Shown here: positions 3,364 through 8,431 of the stretch, in pieces
Layout: the number at the start of each line of letters is the position of its first letter
How positions within the stretch are numbered: position 1 is the first letter of the stretch
Assembly: GCA_018666055.1 (NCBI GenBank)
Contig: JABJAS010000063.1
Coordinates: forward strand, 1-11,048
Origin: Halieaceae bacterium
Lineage (GTDB): Bacteria > Pseudomonadota > Gammaproteobacteria > Pseudomonadales > Halieaceae
Reading direction: 5' to 3'
DNA: 11,048 nt
Translations under genes and position numbers: made by a program
Notes under the pieces: generated by a model
Seen by the model: the letters and a program-made list of their open reading frames with translations, nothing else
What the model was told of the DNA's origin: nothing
The model's database searches: none

Positions 3364-4743
3364 TTATGAACATGCCTCTAGGGCTTCAGATAAGCGCGAT
3401 ACCGGTACCACCTCAAGGTTGGGAATCGGTTTTTTAGGCGCATTGCCCTTCGGCACAATGGCGCGTCTAAAACCGTGCTTCGCCGCCTCAGCCAAACGCT
3501 CCTGACCACTGGCCACAGGACGAATCTCACCAGACAAACCAACCTCTCCGAACACCACCCAGTCTTGGGGCAACGGTCGATCGCGGAGGCTCGATACCAC
3601 TGCGAGTAATAACGCTAAGTCAGCCGAGGTCTCCATCACTCTCACCCCCCCCACTACATTCGCAAACACATCCTGATCACCCACCTGAATGCCGCCATGC
3701 CGGTGGAGTACCGCCAGCAACATCGCTAATCGATTCTGTTCGAATCCGACCGTAACGCGCCGCGGATTACCCAGTGAGCTGTCATCAACCAACGCTTGGA
3801 TCTCCACCAGCAAAGGTCGAGTCCCTTCCCATACGACGACAACCGTCGTCCCTGGTGCAATGTGCTCTGACCGATCCAAAAATATTGCCGAGGGGTTGGT
3901 CACCTCGCGCATACCCGTATCGGTCATGGCAAAAATGCCCAACTCATTGACCGCGCCAAAGCGATTTTTTTGACCGCGCAACGTTCGGTAACGGGTGTCA
4001 TGGTCGCCTTCGAGCAGGATCGAGCAATCGATCATATGCTCGAGTACTTTGGGCCCCGCCAAGCTGCCATCCTTTGTAACATGACCCACTAATATCAGCA
4101 CTGTCCCTGTTTGTTTGGCATAGCGGGTCAGCTGTGAGGCACAGTCTCGAACCTGTGAGACGCTTCCGGGTGCCGATGTCAGCGTATCGCTATGCACCAC
4201 CTGAATGGAGTCAACGACCAGGATTTTAGGTTGTAGGGATTCTGCAGACGCCAAAATAGCATCGACGTCGGTCTCTGCCATCAATTGCAGTTGATCTGTG
4301 GGTAACTGCAGGCGATTGGCTCGCAGAGCAATTTGCTCTGGTGACTCTTCACCGGTGACGTAGAGCGCCGAATGCGACGACGCCAACCGACACAGTGTTT
4401 GCAGCAGAAGCGTGCTTTTACCCGCGCCGGGATGCCCCCCTATAAGAATGCTGGCGCCCGGGACAAACCCACCGCCTAACACACGATCAAATTCGTCGAA
4501 CCCAGATGCCAATCGGGGTAAATCGACAATGGAAACATCCTCTAGCCGCTTGACCGTCGCTAGACTGCCCGCAAAACCACCACGCGTCGCCGCCCGGCCG
4601 CTCGCTGCTTTTTTTGCCGCCGGCGCACTCAAGCGGAATTCAGTCAGCGTGTTCCATGCTTGGCATTCCCCGCATTGGCCCTGCCACTTGGGGAAATCTG
4701 CCCCACAATCGTTGCAGACAAACGCTGTTTTTGCCTTGGCCAC
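3364..4743 (-). CDS. radA: DNA repair and branch-migration protein RadA (Sms)
   Basis: RadA is a RecA-like ATPase that drives branch migration of recombination intermediates and helps process stalled forks. The 459-residue protein is full length. In order: a C4 zinc finger (C10, C13, C24, C27); a RecA-type core with Walker A GHPGAGKST (103-111) and the strand ending ILVVDS (174-179) as Walker B; the RadA-specific KNRFG motif (259-263) followed by AVNELGIF; and a C-terminal Lon-protease-like domain (about 285-459) containing the conserved GGVRVMETSADLALLLA stretch. The start is GTG 4741-4743, with AGGAG (4750-4754) six nt upstream. It is transcribed away from the DnaT-like gene, and the 89 bp between the two starts must hold both promoters. 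Confidence 0.97.
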   Translation of the reverse strand: MAKAKTAFVCNDCGADFPKWQGQCGECQAWNTLTEFRLSAPAAKKAASGRAATRGGFAGSLATVKRLEDVSIVDLPRLASGFDEFDRVLGGGFVPGASILIGGHPGAGKSTLLLQTLCRLASSHSALYVTGEESPEQIALRANRLQLPTDQLQLMAETDVDAILASAESLQPKILVVDSIQVVHSDTLTSAPGSVSQVRDCASQLTRYAKQTGTVLILVGHVTKDGSLAGPKVLEHMIDCSILLEGDHDTRYRTLRGQKNRFGAVNELGIFAMTDTGMREVTNPSAIFLDRSEHIAPGTTVVVVWEGTRPLLVEIQALVDDSSLGNPRRVTVGFEQNRLAMLLAVLHRHGGIQVGDQDVFANVVGGVRVMETSADLALLLAVVSSLRDRPLPQDWVVFGEVGLSGEIRPVASGQERLAEAAKHGFRRAIVPKGNAPKKPIPNLEVVPVSRLSEALEACS

Positions 4744-4832: not shown

Positions 4833-5915
4833 ATGCCTTCCGGTTCCCTCATTCCCGACCGACAATTGACTTTCTCGCCCGAGCTGGCCGAGACCATCGG
4901 TTTAGAAGAAGCGATTTTACTGCAAGCACTGGGCACCAAACTGACCAATTGCGATGGTTGGACAACGATCGTGCTCCAGGAACTCCAGCAAACACTGCCC
5001 TTTTGGTCGATAGACCACATTATTCAACTGAGCGATAAATTAGTGGCGCTGGGCATTCTCGCGCGCTCATCGCATCACGACGCCGCGATATTGATCCTGT
5101 CGGCAACGGCGTTGGCGGAGCCCTCACGGCGCGTTGAGTCTGAGCCAGCTACCCCGACCCATCATCCCGGCAGTGCATTCGAGGCTCACCGCCGTCACTG
5201 GCAACCCAGTGATGCGTTGATTGATCTACTGGTGATGACCCAGGGAATCCCTCGCACGTTTGTCGACTCCATCGCGTCACAGTTTCTGCCCTCAGAGAGC
5301 GGCCGAGATATCGATACCCAATTTCGGCAACATGCCCTCGCACGCTGGCGAGCGCAACAAGGACTCACCACGGCATTTGAGATCAGCACCCCACCGCCAT
5401 TTGGCAAAGACTGGCGGCCGAATCAAGATGCCTTCGAAATTCTCGAGCAAGCAGGCATTGATCCAGAATTTGCCGACTCTGTGAGAGGGGAATTTGTGCT
5501 GTATTGGCGAGAACGGGGCGGGCCCCCTAAAGAAATTAATACCCGCTTTGTCGAACACGTCCGCCGTCGTTGGTTACGTCATACTAGTCAGATACATCAC
5601 AGCACGGAGCCGACCCGTATACCACGACACTGGCAACCCGACGTGGCGGTCTATGACACCCTTGGACTGGCCGGCATCTCGGAACAAGATGCCAAGGCAT
5701 TTCTGCCCGAGTTTGTGATGTATTGGCTCGACAGCAATGAAGTACACACTTCTTGGAACAGCAAGTTTCTGCAACATGTGAAGCGCCAAACTCAGAGCGC
5801 GAACTATGGAGATCCCAATGGCGGAGCAAAAGGACGCGGCGGCGCTGGCGCAAACCATCGTTCAAAGGACCGAAGCCTCAACGACGACCTCACCGACACC
5901 AGCTGGGCCAACTGA
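4833..5915 (+). CDS. Phage O-like/DnaT-like ssDNA-binding replication protein with three DnaT domains (candidate DopC)
   Basis: Likely a replication-initiation or restart accessory protein acting on single-stranded DNA with the DnaB loader encoded next to it. Of 360 residues, about 6-80 form a helical, winged-helix-like N-terminal region (opening LIPDRQLTFSPELAETIGLE). Three tandem units resembling the E. coli DnaT C-terminal domain follow, at about 122-172, 193-247 and 266-320. Each has an initial W-x-P, then a hydrophobic helix, and units 2 and 3 keep EFVxYW and a basic FxxHVxR end; compare DnaT DWQPDADF...FIAYW. The tail (325-360) is Gly/Arg/Asp-rich and overlaps the next gene. ATG 4833 is chosen because upstream codons would run into radA and the family-like sequence starts here, but no clear ribosome-binding site precedes it; TTG 4818 is the alternative. 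The gene order O-like then P-like is the phage lambda order. The DnaT assignment is firm; equating it with the proposed dopC is inference. Confidence 0.8.
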   Translation: MPSGSLIPDRQLTFSPELAETIGLEEAILLQALGTKLTNCDGWTTIVLQELQQTLPFWSIDHIIQLSDKLVALGILARSSHHDAAILILSATALAEPSRRVESEPATPTHHPGSAFEAHRRHWQPSDALIDLLVMTQGIPRTFVDSIASQFLPSESGRDIDTQFRQHALARWRAQQGLTTAFEISTPPPFGKDWRPNQDAFEILEQAGIDPEFADSVRGEFVLYWRERGGPPKEINTRFVEHVRRRWLRHTSQIHHSTEPTRIPRHWQPDVAVYDTLGLAGISEQDAKAFLPEFVMYWLDSNEVHTSWNSKFLQHVKRQTQSANYGDPNGGAKGRGGAGANHRSKDRSLNDDLTDTSWAN

Positions 5916-6495
5916 CGCGTCAGAACCGCCCGACGCGCAAGGCATTGAGGCCATTAATCAGGTTTTCGGGCTATTCCGACTGAACTACCACAACCAATAT
6001 TATGCCGCGTGGTCTGATTCAGAGCAGGTCAAGCAAGTCAAACGACTTTGGCTTGAGGCGCTTGATGCCTATCCCACCGCAGTCGTCTTACGTGCCGCTC
6101 AACATGCCATTGAAACCAGTGACTATTTGCCGACGCTCAACCGCATGATCGACGCCTGCCGACATGGCATGAGTGATCTGGGGTTACCGTCTCCCTATGA
6201 CGCCTATCGGGAAGCCTGTCTCGCGCCCACGCCAAAAACAGGGGCGGCTTGGCGCCACCCTGCTGTCTACCTCGCGGGCTGCGACTGTGGCTGGTTTTTT
6301 TTAGCCAACGAGGCAGAGCATCGAACCTGGCCGCTATTTCGCGAACACTATGAGCGCTGGGTCAGTCGAGCAGCACGAGGCGAAATACTGAAGGGACCTG
6401 AGCGGGTCAGCATTGCAGCCCCTGACGATGAGCCACCGAGCACCGAGGAACAAGTCACGCAGTTAGCACAATTACGAAGAGAGACCGGTCTCTGA
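5818..6495 (+). CDS. dopE: Lambda replication protein P-like helicase loader (candidate DopE)
   Basis: Lambda P captures host DnaB and delivers it to the O-bound origin; this 225-residue chromosomal relative probably recruits DnaB, encoded about 430 bp away. Similarity by eye to lambda P is spread along the protein: EAINQVFG (44-51) against P's QIINGVFS; the V..VKRLWLEA helix (71-81) against VNEIRRQWVLA; YLP...ACR (103-115) against FLP...WCR; W145 and HP.VYL against WKSNAHYWL; SRAARGEI (183-190) against TARINRGEA; and the C-terminal QVTQLAQLRRETGL. Residues 1-42 are a variable Ala/Thr/Pro-rich linker. ATG 5818 is preferred over ATG 5806 because GGAG at 5808-5811 lies six nt before it. The start is inside the upstream gene (98-bp overlap), so translation is probably coupled. 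The 3' end overlaps convergent hpt by 24 bp. Homology is strong; the cellular role is inferred. Confidence 0.8.
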   Translation: MAEQKDAAALAQTIVQRTEASTTTSPTPAGPTDASEPPDAQGIEAINQVFGLFRLNYHNQYYAAWSDSEQVKQVKRLWLEALDAYPTAVVLRAAQHAIETSDYLPTLNRMIDACRHGMSDLGLPSPYDAYREACLAPTPKTGAAWRHPAVYLAGCDCGWFFLANEAEHRTWPLFREHYERWVSRAARGEILKGPERVSIAAPDDEPPSTEEQVTQLAQLRRETGL

Positions 6496-6861
6496 CTCAT
6501 TGGTTGGGCTGGCGCTATCAAGCCAATACGCAATGACCTCTCGTAACCGCGTCGCTTGCTCGATCATCTTCTGATGGTTCGCCAGTAGCTGCGCGTCATC
6601 CGTTTCTTTGCACGATTGTTCTAGCTCACTCGCAACAGCCGACAGCATCGGCGCAGTTAAGTTGGCGCTGGTGCCCTTTAATCGGTGTGCGATCTGCTGC
6701 AAAGAGGCTCGATCATTCGCCTCGATGGCAATAGTGCTGGCGTTTAAGTCGGCTGACAGTTCGTCGACAAACAGCTCCAGCAACGAGCGAACCCCGTCAT
6801 GATTCCCCCCCATCAGCTCAATGAGCGCAGCAAAATCAATGGGAAGCGGTGGGTTTTGCAT
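6472..6861 (-). CDS. Stand-alone Hpt domain phosphotransfer protein
   Basis: A 129-residue single-domain histidine phosphotransfer protein, which would pass phosphoryl groups between response-regulator receiver domains in a phosphorelay. The diagnostic motif is AHRLKGTSANL (58-68), with H59 as the phosphorylation site and the K and G of HRLKG present. The flanking sequence reads as the expected four-helix bundle: FVDELSADLN before it, LSAVASELEQSCK after it. No signal peptide, membrane segment or kinase domain is visible. It starts at ATG 6861 without a recognisable Shine-Dalgarno sequence and lies 60 bp downstream of dnaB on the same strand, so it is probably the last gene of that transcription unit. 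Its partner kinase is not in the window. Its stop lies inside the 3' end of the convergent lambda P-like gene. Confidence 0.87.
   Translation of the reverse strand: MQNPPLPIDFAALIELMGGNHDGVRSLLELFVDELSADLNASTIAIEANDRASLQQIAHRLKGTSANLTAPMLSAVASELEQSCKETDDAQLLANHQKMIEQATRLREVIAYWLDSASPTNESETGLSS
6480..6493. repeat. 14-bp perfect palindrome at the dopE/hpt 3' junction
   Basis: AGAGACCGGTCTCT reads the same on both strands and lies in the 24-bp overlap of two convergent genes. It could fold as a 5-bp stem with a CCGG loop in either transcript, but no T-tract follows on either side, so a terminator role is not supported by sequence alone. Confidence 0.6.
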
Positions 6862-6921: not shown

Positions 6922-8298
6922 CTAATAACCCGCGTAGTCATCGCGGGCAAGGTTTTCGAAACGGGTGAATTCACCCTGAAAAGCAAGCCGGCAAGTGCCG
7001 ATGGGGCCGTTCCGTTGCTTGCCAATAATGATCTCGGCGACCCCCTTATCGGGCGAATCCTCGTGATACACCTCATCACGATAAATAAACATCACCACGT
7101 CCGCGTCTTGCTCAATCGCACCAGATTCACGCAAATCTGAATTAACCGGTCGCTTATTCGGTCTTTGTTCGAGCGCTCTGTTGAGCTGTGACAAGGCGAC
7201 GACCGGACAACGAAATTCTTTGGCGATCGCTTTCAAGTTACGTGAAATCTCGGAAATCTCCGCGGTACGGCCCTCGTTGGAACCCGCCACCCGCATCAAC
7301 TGGAGGTAGTCGATCATGATCATGGCAAGATCACCGTGCTCTCGCGACAATCGACGCACACGTGACCTGACTTCGGTTGGCGTCAGCGCCGGCGTATCGT
7401 CAATGAAGATCGAAGTATCCTTGAGTTTGGCCATCGCCGACGACAGTTTCGGCCAATCGTCTTGCTGTAACTTTCCCGTGCGAACCCGGGACTGATCAAT
7501 TTTACCGAGCGAGGACATCATCCTAATCACCAGCTGCTCGGCTGGCATCTCCATCGAAAAAACGACAATCGGTTTTTCTGTATGAGCTGACGCGTTCTCA
7601 ACCAAATTCATCGCAAAGCTGGTTTTACCCATCGACGGTCGGCCCGCAACAATCACTAAGTCTGAAGGCTGCAGTCCAGATGTTTTTTTATCCAAATCGA
7701 TAAATCCGGTGGTGAGGCCCGTGATATCGCCCCCCGTATTATAAAGTTCCTCAATACGCTCCAACGCGCCGGAAAGCAGCGGTGCCATGCTCTGAGGCCC
7801 CCCTGATTTGGGCCCGCTCTCAGACACAGTCATGATCAGTCGTTCGGCCTCATCGACCAATTCGTCGGCGCTACGTCCCTCAGGGTTAAAGCCCGCGTTG
7901 GCAATGTCTTGCGCTGCATCAATGAGTTTGCGAAGCAGCGCACGTTCCCTGACGGCACGAGCGTAAGCGCTGACGTTGGCCGCCGTTGGGGTCTGCTCTA
8001 CGAGGTCGGTCAGATAGGTGTGGCCGCCGGCCGCATCGAGCTCGCCGGTAGCCAGTAGCCGGTCGGCAACCGTAATGACGTCAATCGGTTCGTTACGATC
8101 CACCAACAGGGCGATCTGGCGAAAAATGGCGCGGTGCTCTGGACGATAAAAATCGCTGGCGTTCACTTGCTCAGCTATGGCGTCCCAGCTCTCCGGCGCT
8201 AACAAAATACCGCCTATCACCGAGCGTTCCGCCTCGATTGACTGGGGTTGCATGCGGATCCGGGATATATCCGGATCCTCAGAGCTGAAGGAGTTCAA
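6922..8298 (-). CDS. dnaB: Replicative DNA helicase DnaB
   Basis: Hexameric 5'-3' fork helicase that unwinds DNA ahead of the replisome and recruits primase. From the TTG start the protein has 458 residues. The N-terminal domain begins at about PQSIEAERSVIGG (18-30). The RecA-like domain has Walker A GRPSMGKT (219-226, K225), Walker B IMIDYLQL (327-334), SQLNR (370-374) and DLRESGAIEQDAD (388-400). No intein interrupts these motifs. Start choice: residues EDPDISRIRMQPQSIEAE align with E. coli RDPQVAGLKVPPHSIEAE, so the ATG at 8253 is too short. TTG 8296-8298 has AAAAGG seven nt upstream and gives a length close to Pseudomonas DnaB. ATG 8352 is a longer alternative with no ribosome-binding site. 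It lies 157 bp after rplI with the same orientation. The E. coli-type priB and dnaC genes are not nearby. Confidence 0.96.
   Translation of the reverse strand: MNSFSSEDPDISRIRMQPQSIEAERSVIGGILLAPESWDAIAEQVNASDFYRPEHRAIFRQIALLVDRNEPIDVITVADRLLATGELDAAGGHTYLTDLVEQTPTAANVSAYARAVRERALLRKLIDAAQDIANAGFNPEGRSADELVDEAERLIMTVSESGPKSGGPQSMAPLLSGALERIEELYNTGGDITGLTTGFIDLDKKTSGLQPSDLVIVAGRPSMGKTSFAMNLVENASAHTEKPIVVFSMEMPAEQLVIRMMSSLGKIDQSRVRTGKLQQDDWPKLSSAMAKLKDTSIFIDDTPALTPTEVRSRVRRLSREHGDLAMIMIDYLQLMRVAGSNEGRTAEISEISRNLKAIAKEFRCPVVALSQLNRALEQRPNKRPVNSDLRESGAIEQDADVVMFIYRDEVYHEDSPDKGVAEIIIGKQRNGPIGTCRLAFQGEFTRFENLARDDYAGY
8256..8278. repeat. Inverted repeat at the 5' end of dnaB
   Basis: GGATCCGG (8256-8263) and CCGGATCC (8271-8278) are perfect 8-bp arms around a 7-nt AT-rich spacer. 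Overlapping the centre is a second palindrome, GGATATATCC (8263-8272). With the TTG 8298 start it lies at codons 7-14; in mRNA it would make a stable hairpin just after the start codon. It could limit dnaB translation or be a protein-binding site. Confidence 0.5.
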
Positions 8299-8431
8299 AA
8301 CGCTGCCTTTTGTTGTGCACCATCGGCCGGTCGCTGTGACGCTGACGCTCATTGAGCGGGCCCGTCATCAGCTACCGGGCCGAATAGAGTACCTGTGACA
8401 ACGGCAACGCGCCAGCAGATATCGGAAGTTG

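Follow-up and report, generated by a model that had tools for sequence, protein, structure and literature searches.

Three described systems lie close to the locus examined here: the O and P genes of phage lambda, the DnaT-DnaC operon of E. coli, and the chromosomal pair dopC and dopE, which was reportedly proposed by Brezellec et al. in 2017, in a paper cited by PMC13326638, PMC9912922 and PMC10201434. In the last of these systems, a chromosomal loader of lambda P type is reported to follow a partner gene, in a lineage that has neither DciA nor DnaC. We analyzed a contig of 11,048 bases (the window) that carries such a pair beside dnaB, the gene of the replicative helicase. The original prediction, made from the sequence of the window, had taken the pair for a domesticated lambda O/P-type pair and for the essential DnaB loader of its organism. 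Membership of the pair in the known DopCE kind of loader is well supported by comparison, and the genes are called dopC and dopE below. We consider it likely that the pair is the chromosomal replicative-helicase loader of its lineage, with a tryptophan (Trp) tail on DopC that docks DopE and so delivers DopE-DnaB.

The locus shares with lambda the P fold of the second product, the O-P gene order, which had been pointed out in the prediction, and a Trp tail that is similar on lambda O. It differs from lambda in that DopC has DnaT domains in place of the Phage_rep_O domain (PF04492), that the two genes overlap by 98 nucleotides (nt) rather than 4 nt, and that dopC contains no iteron-like repeat array. 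As in the E. coli operon, the gene of a protein with a DnaT-type domain precedes that of a helicase loader, but DopE is P-type whereas DnaC is an AAA+ protein, a single DopC chain holds three DnaT domains, and the C-terminal tails differ. Phage VW-6S and the ydaU-ydaV genes of Rac-SA53 likewise pair a DnaT-domain initiator with a downstream P-family or annotated P gene; unlike DopC, these initiators are phage-borne and have one DnaT domain. Glycine precedes the Trp in the VW-6S initiator, which therefore does not satisfy the strict motif defined below. The Rac-SA53 gene annotated ydaV (L528, 2955-3416) encodes a lambda P-family protein (4.6e-16) beside a DnaT-domain ydaU with a CTDW tail. To the outline of DopC/DopE given above, this analysis adds the three DnaT domains, the Trp tail common to phage O, the 98-nt overlap, the site between radA and dnaB, and the occurrence of a copy in a phage contig with Mu-like genes. 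The way in which DnaT brings DnaB/DnaC to the fork is called unknown in the accessible part of a 2026 paper (PMC13377028), and the available text of another describes recruitment of the complex by restart proteins as not well understood (PMC11087952). Our literature search found no experiments on DopCE.

Domain content of DopE and DopC

The second gene of the pair encodes a member of the lambda P family. Its product matched Phage_lambda_P (PF06992) in Pfam at 2.5e-8, above the curated cut-off, and PHROG 109, "P-like helicase loader", at 1.8e-23. A search of the PDB with the single sequence was unhelpful, and profiles gave matches; a profile of 22 DopE relatives matched lambda P (8v9t) at 3.1e-6. 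An AlphaFold2 model of DopE (predicted local distance difference test, pLDDT, 75; predicted template modelling score, pTM, 0.59) was compared with solved structures by Foldseek, and the best match was 9oa1, lambda P bound to DnaB (E 4.5e-6). An AAA+ ATPase domain was not found in DopE, for which Pfam gave PF06992 only, plus PF11417 below cut-off; NCBIfam gave zero matches for the product of either gene. PF06992 overlooked the window's own dopE in the genome scan and was too insensitive for relatives, and for this reason the DopE protein and its alignments were used as queries.

The product of the first gene matched DnaT (PF17948) in three stretches (Pfam, E 3.8e-44), where the original prediction had expected a single DnaT domain before a lambda P homologue. 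In the AlphaFold2 model of DopC (pLDDT 76, pTM 0.30), a winged helix and three helical DnaT domains are followed by a largely disordered end that includes a short helix; the placement of the domains is not trusted because of the low pTM. In the genome scan with PF17948, only DnaT domains 2 and 3 were scored in the window's own genome, and the divergent domain 1 was not. A Foldseek search with the DopC model gave zero matches at E<=0.001; DnaT and winged-helix chains were among the weak matches, as were the initiator N-terminal domains 4pql and 4pt7. Residues 5 to 83, approximately, resemble phage replication-initiation proteins, some of which are annotated as O-like. All 19 DopC proteins compared matched DnaT, and phage O-like PHROGs appeared among them once each at 0.045 and 0.068. 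The initiator-like N-terminal region and the O-like tail bear on an O origin of DopC, yet PF04492 matched none of the 19 at E<=1. By domain content DopC is a DnaT-type protein and not a lambda O homologue; at the level of domains, the predicted O/P-type pair held for P and not for O. Lambda-type origin iterons were sought inside dopC, where a repeat array was not found and two weak repeat pairs were the only repeats.

The DnaT domain is tripled in the lineage of the window. One DnaT domain was scored in eight loci of other families (L095, L096, L097, L218, L219, L225, L230 and L231), in L229 and in some cut contigs, and four were scored in G051. L229 (G238, Halieaceae) is a short DopC open reading frame (ORF) of 258 aa, either real or the product of a frame error. 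According to two papers, E. coli DnaT assembles on single strands into trimers and filaments (PMC4132743, PMC13377028); by analogy, three tandem DnaT domains in one chain may represent a pre-joined segment of a DnaT filament.

Distribution of the pair and of other loaders

DciA was not found in the window's own genome, which is uninformative at a completeness of 65.7%. Since that genome (1.99 Mb) was too incomplete, relatives were used for the question of the loader. A set of 58 genomes was assembled, including the window's own and comprising 37 of the same genus. A P-type protein was present in 47 of these genomes, DciA in 8, both in none and neither in three (G001, G018 and G026), which are 62-75% complete. 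DnaT was found in 48 genomes, namely the 47 with a P-type protein and G026, and in none of the 8 with DciA. An order-level set of 293 genomes, again including the window's own and requested at a completeness of at least 90%, was searched with a profile of 22 DopE sequences. DopE was matched in 186 genomes, DciA in 90, both in 5 and neither in 22. A strong DopE match (E<1e-40) was present in 180 of the 293, and DciA in 0 of those 180. In each of the five genomes with both loaders the DopE match was weak (1.8e-4 to 6.6e-29), and these P matches are probably prophage P genes. At class level, DopE was matched in 24 of 370 genomes, and at E<1e-40 only in the window's own genome and in three genomes of 1.2-1.3 Mb. 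In three genomes of other families, of 1.2-1.3 Mb (G485, G577 and G651; loci L499, L500 and L501), a DopE-like gene follows the gene of a protein with a related Trp tail.

DnaC was sought in 23 genomes by way of the DnaC/IstB family (PF01695). Each genome gave some match, mostly weak, partial and in long frames, and the weak matches were taken, without inspection, for other AAA+ proteins (DnaA, Lon and the like). Strong matches were present in G000, G010, G042 (two) and G045 (partial), and those inspected (G000, G010 and one of G042) were istB genes adjoining an istA-like ORF. DnaC was not recognized in the 23 genomes, among which the partial G045 match, the second G042 match and the weak matches were uninspected. 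The sole strong DnaC-family match of the window's own genome (L122, G000:C5) is an istB beside an istA-like ORF.

We take the Halieaceae to belong to the Cellvibrionales. In the available text of Brezellec 2016 (PMC5109545), Cellvibrionales is named as the sole order without both known loaders. The absence of DciA from strong-DopE genomes and of recognized DnaC from the 23 genomes agrees with a lineage that lacks both, the setting of the domestication proposal cited in the original prediction. The view that the pair is the main DnaB loader of the lineage is supported by mutual exclusion with DciA in relatives, and not by the window's own genome.

Gene order, selection and overlap

The pair occupies a fixed chromosomal place outside any prophage. 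The same-genus loci fetched numbered 25, out of 34 same-genus genomes with the gene, and in all 25 dnaB followed the pair on the other strand, about 4.7 kb away in G010. radA preceded dopC in 23, and the two remaining contigs start at or within dopC. Among 33 loci of other genera and families, some on short contigs, radA lay within 3 kb (between midpoints) in 17 and dnaB in 6. In the window, dopE ends 426 bp from dnaB, close to the 430 bp estimated in the prediction. Phage structural, integrase and regulatory genes, which had been reported as absent, were likewise not recognized in the window (ORF list read by eye, six ORFs compared with Pfam).

The ratio of nonsynonymous to synonymous substitution rates (dN/dS) against three close relatives, outside the overlap, was 0.035-0.063 for dopE and 0.081-0.103 for dopC, which indicated purifying selection on both genes. 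The values were 0.004-0.014 for dnaB, 0.010-0.013 for radA and 0.105-0.249 for the Hpt gene. A frame change breaks dopE in G032 (L108, L134); the radA and ettA matches are shortened there too, which makes an assembly error likelier than decay of dopE.

The original prediction had missed that the two genes overlap, in different frames, by 98 nt. The overlap was of the same length in 20 of 20 close relatives. In loci of other genera with both genes it measured 32-140 nt in 28 of 32 and 176-263 nt in the other four; with the first possible start used in each case, these lengths are maxima. Site diversity inside the overlap was 0.076, 0.122 and 0.098 at the three codon positions, compared with 0.505 (dopE) and 0.514 (dopC) at third positions outside it. 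This low diversity indicated that both reading frames are held.

The C-terminal tail of DopC

The conserved block at the C-terminal end of DopC reads approximately RTRDRSLxDDL[TS]DTSWA, with W358 invariant in two alignments, and the C-terminal ends of lambda O and other phage O proteins are similar to it. A strict motif, [DNS]x[SDT]W, was scored in the last 25 residues of DopC. It was present in 118 of 121 unique proteins, a set made up mainly of Halieaceae sequences and without L098 and L099, which have a prophage P and no DopC. Two of the three misses have glycine before the Trp, and the third has an ambiguous residue. In IMG/VR, 150 P loci yielded 143 pairs with an upstream ORF (7 gave none) and 46 unique ends, of which the 42 within 60 nt of P were kept and the 4 farther away were dropped. 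The strict motif stood in the last 15 residues of 40 of these 42 initiator ends, compared with 10 of 815 other unique ORFs; a scan with lambda O was used solely for background ORFs. At 50% identity, motif bearers occurred in 10 of 13 initiator clusters.

Homologues of PAJU2 O are found with and without an adjoining P gene. The non-P set comprised 23 loci with 36-82% identity over the shared part, and the next gene was a DnaB match in 21 of them, the contig ending first in 2. All 9 unique P-linked homologues had the motif within their last 15 residues, and 0 of 21 unique homologues in the non-P set did (Fisher 7e-8); 2 of the 21 had it in the last 25 residues, in matches that look like chance. 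Among seven named phages whose initiator has no adjoining P (P22 included), none had the strict motif and one had a Trp in the last 15 residues. In the accessible text on lambda Oam29, 294 of 299 O residues are made and the authors regard the final five as essential; a 76-residue C-terminal addition to lambda O is reported there to be tolerated. These observations fit a docking tail that is not necessarily at the free end. From the sequence comparisons we infer that the DopC Trp tail is a loader-docking peptide, an idea for which our literature search, in partial texts only, found no statement.

E. coli DnaT, the partner of DnaC, ends in SEPDSQIPPGFRG, which differs from the DopC tail. In some Escherichia and Klebsiella phage initiators the DnaT match is limited to the last 20-25 residues. 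A P-like ORF was not found within 5-6 kb in SPN1S, Evi, Tritos, mEp460_ev081 and PhiR42_1, which have a DnaT-type tail (three distinct). Four coliphage initiators (L510, L511, L529 and L530) have the host DnaT tail and no P-like ORF nearby; two of the four were scanned against Pfam and had no family match. The SPN1S family was sampled as the best 80 of 591 loci, with 57 unique ends. An IPxGFxG tail was present in 27 unique members, of which 0 were seen beside P (with one contig ending 81 nt on), 3 beside a DnaC homologue and 24 beside neither. The tail was found in 0 of 22 unique P-linked members (Fisher 1.7e-9, the members not being independent) and in 0 of 418 background ORFs.

Copies in phage contigs

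Two IMG/VR contigs that we call Mu-like, a label that rests on a reading of their ORFs, carry parts of the system. In L233 (4552-5588) a DopE relative of 40% identity follows an unrelated initiator, which has the same Trp motif about 30 residues before its C-terminal end. In the tree this DopE relative paired, within chromosomal DopE, with the protein of G051 (91/87, short of the tool's star), and this grouping suggests capture from a host. L234 (4992-5492) encodes two DnaT-like units and a DopC tail, and a P gene was not recognized in it.

Layout of the window

Among the best 80 of 236 related loci in named genomes, uncultured Luminiphilus and Halieaceae stood at the top, and the organism of the window is an uncultured marine Luminiphilus. 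Both ORFs of the pair were present as predicted (Table 1). A second in-frame ATG for dopE lies at 5806. The Hpt gene is fast-evolving, overlaps the end of dopE tail to tail, and was recognized in only part of the genus loci.

Table 1 Features of the locus, with positions in the window.
Feature	Position	Strand	Remarks
radA	3364-4743	-	RadA-type domain matches; neighbour on the other side of the pair
dopC-type gene	4833-5915	+	360 aa; winged helix at the N-terminus, then three DnaT domains in tandem, then the C-terminal tail
DopC N-terminal winged helix, residues 16-90	4878-5102	+	AlphaFold2 model
DnaT domain 1, residues 123-178, divergent	5199-5366	+	Alignment and model; Pfam counts three stretches
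DnaT domain 2, residues 194-255	5412-5597	+	PF17948 match at 5406-5591; model
DnaT domain 3, residues 262-322	5616-5798	+	Best PF17948 stretch; model
Possible dopE ribosome-binding site GGAG, inside dopC	5808-5811	+	Read from sequence
dopC/dopE overlap, 98 nt, different frames	5818-5915	+	DopC tail and DopE N-terminus
dopE-type gene, lambda P-type helicase loader	5818-6495	+	225 aa; ORF list, Pfam, PHROGs, fold
Conserved DopC C-terminal tail with Trp358 (codon 5904-5906), proposed DopE-docking peptide	5859-5912	+	Alignments
Hpt (phosphotransfer) gene	6472-6861	-	Between dopE and dnaB
dnaB, replicative helicase, presumed client	6922-8352	-	PF03796 5.3e-109, PF00772 1.5e-34

Alternative explanations

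Several observations weigh against a loader of this kind with a docking tail. The window's own genome is incomplete, dopC and dopE evolve faster than dnaB and radA, and in the tree DopE is not resolved from phage P as a single clade. The initiators compared are related sequences: 44 of them, the 42 above and two added ones, form 5 clusters at an identity of 30% and 13 clusters at 50%. Only 5 of 12 named P-linked phages have the strict motif in the last 15 residues; in the rest, ZX5 has it farther in, four have WNSPEGW-like ends, a Vibrio phage has ESDW, and one is a fragment. A Trp tail is lacking on the initiator that precedes the prophage P gene in G042, and at 11 P-like loci at class level a Trp tail was present upstream in 6, mostly outside the strict motif, and absent in 4, with no upstream ORF in 1. 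Of the 22 unique P-linked members of the SPN1S/ydaU-like family, 3 have the strict Trp tail, two as an NTDW type and one as WNSPEGW. A loose aromatic rule, which 51 of 418 background ORFs satisfy as well, takes in another 10 (13 of 22 in total), and the remaining 9 satisfy neither. Eight unique members of the family have no P, DnaC or DnaT-type tail, one of them a truncated protein. According to the accessible part of PMC13377028, it is the N-terminal domain of DnaT that has been suggested as a possible recruiter, by a mechanism called unknown. The available text of PMC6022878 reports that a long C-terminal tag on O helps complementation, so the O tail need not be a free end. The strict Trp motif is ruled out as universal for P-linked initiators by the named phages and the SPN1S family, and these, G042 and the class-level exceptions indicate that the Trp tail is not one fixed motif.

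It is doubtful, though conceivable, that the tail of DopC and O binds DnaB, SSB or another host protein rather than P or DopE, its link to the P gene being indirect. P-bearing and P-less phages differ in other genes too, and several P-linked initiators lack the tail. The tail type nevertheless tracked the partner gene among the PAJU2 O homologues, separating the P-linked from the helicase-linked members, and no DnaT-type tail stood beside P in the SPN1S family. That the tail is conserved only through codons shared with dopE is highly improbable: the 98-nt overlap constrains both frames, but most phage O genes of the IMG/VR set, and lambda O as well, overlap P by 1-4 nt and have the tail nonetheless. 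Mu uses the PriA primosome, and the two Mu-like contigs with DopC- or DopE-like parts would accord with a role of DopCE in replication restart by the PriA route, with another, unseen loader at oriC. The three DnaT domains of DopC point the same way, since DnaT is an E. coli restart protein in the available text of PMC13377028. We regard this role as improbable, because DopE replaces DciA, which is a general loader, and because neither PriB (TIGR04418) nor PriC (PF07445) was found above cut-off in the 37 same-genus genomes, with weak PriC matches in G026 and G029; restart in the genus may run without both. A prophage remnant that lies near dnaB by chance would share the phage O-P gene order, and P-type proteins do occur in phages, but the probability of such a remnant is close to nil. 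It was rejected on the constant dnaB neighbour in the genus, purifying selection, mutual exclusion with DciA and the lack of any other recognized phage gene in the window. On the conserved radA-dopC-dopE-dnaB order and the purifying selection in relatives, the domestication that the original prediction had preferred is upheld.

Proposed mechanism and meaning

In the loader that we propose, DopE would use the lambda P fold to grip and open the DnaB ring, and DopC would sit on origin or fork DNA, with use at oriC presumed. The winged helix of DopC may contact duplex DNA or a partner. The three DnaT domains would cover single-stranded DNA in the manner of a DnaT filament whose units come already joined. 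The C-terminal Trp tail would then dock DopE and thereby bring DopE-DnaB to the exposed strand.

A broader scheme, to which we give somewhat better than even credence on the sequence patterns, is that exchangeable C-terminal docking peptides of O, DnaT and DopC initiators choose the loader. A Trp tail ([DN]-x-[SDT]-W or WNSPEGW-like) would select P or DopE, an IPPGFRG-like DnaT tail would select DnaC, and the peptide would be portable across unrelated DNA-binding domains. Phages without a loader would copy the host DnaT tail and borrow host DnaC-DnaB, and DopCE would be the chromosomal fixation of the Trp-tail version. The comparison of DopC, lambda O and DnaT singles out a short stretch of about 20 residues at the C-terminus that lends itself to testing, and a docking tail there would give DopCE a concrete mechanism.

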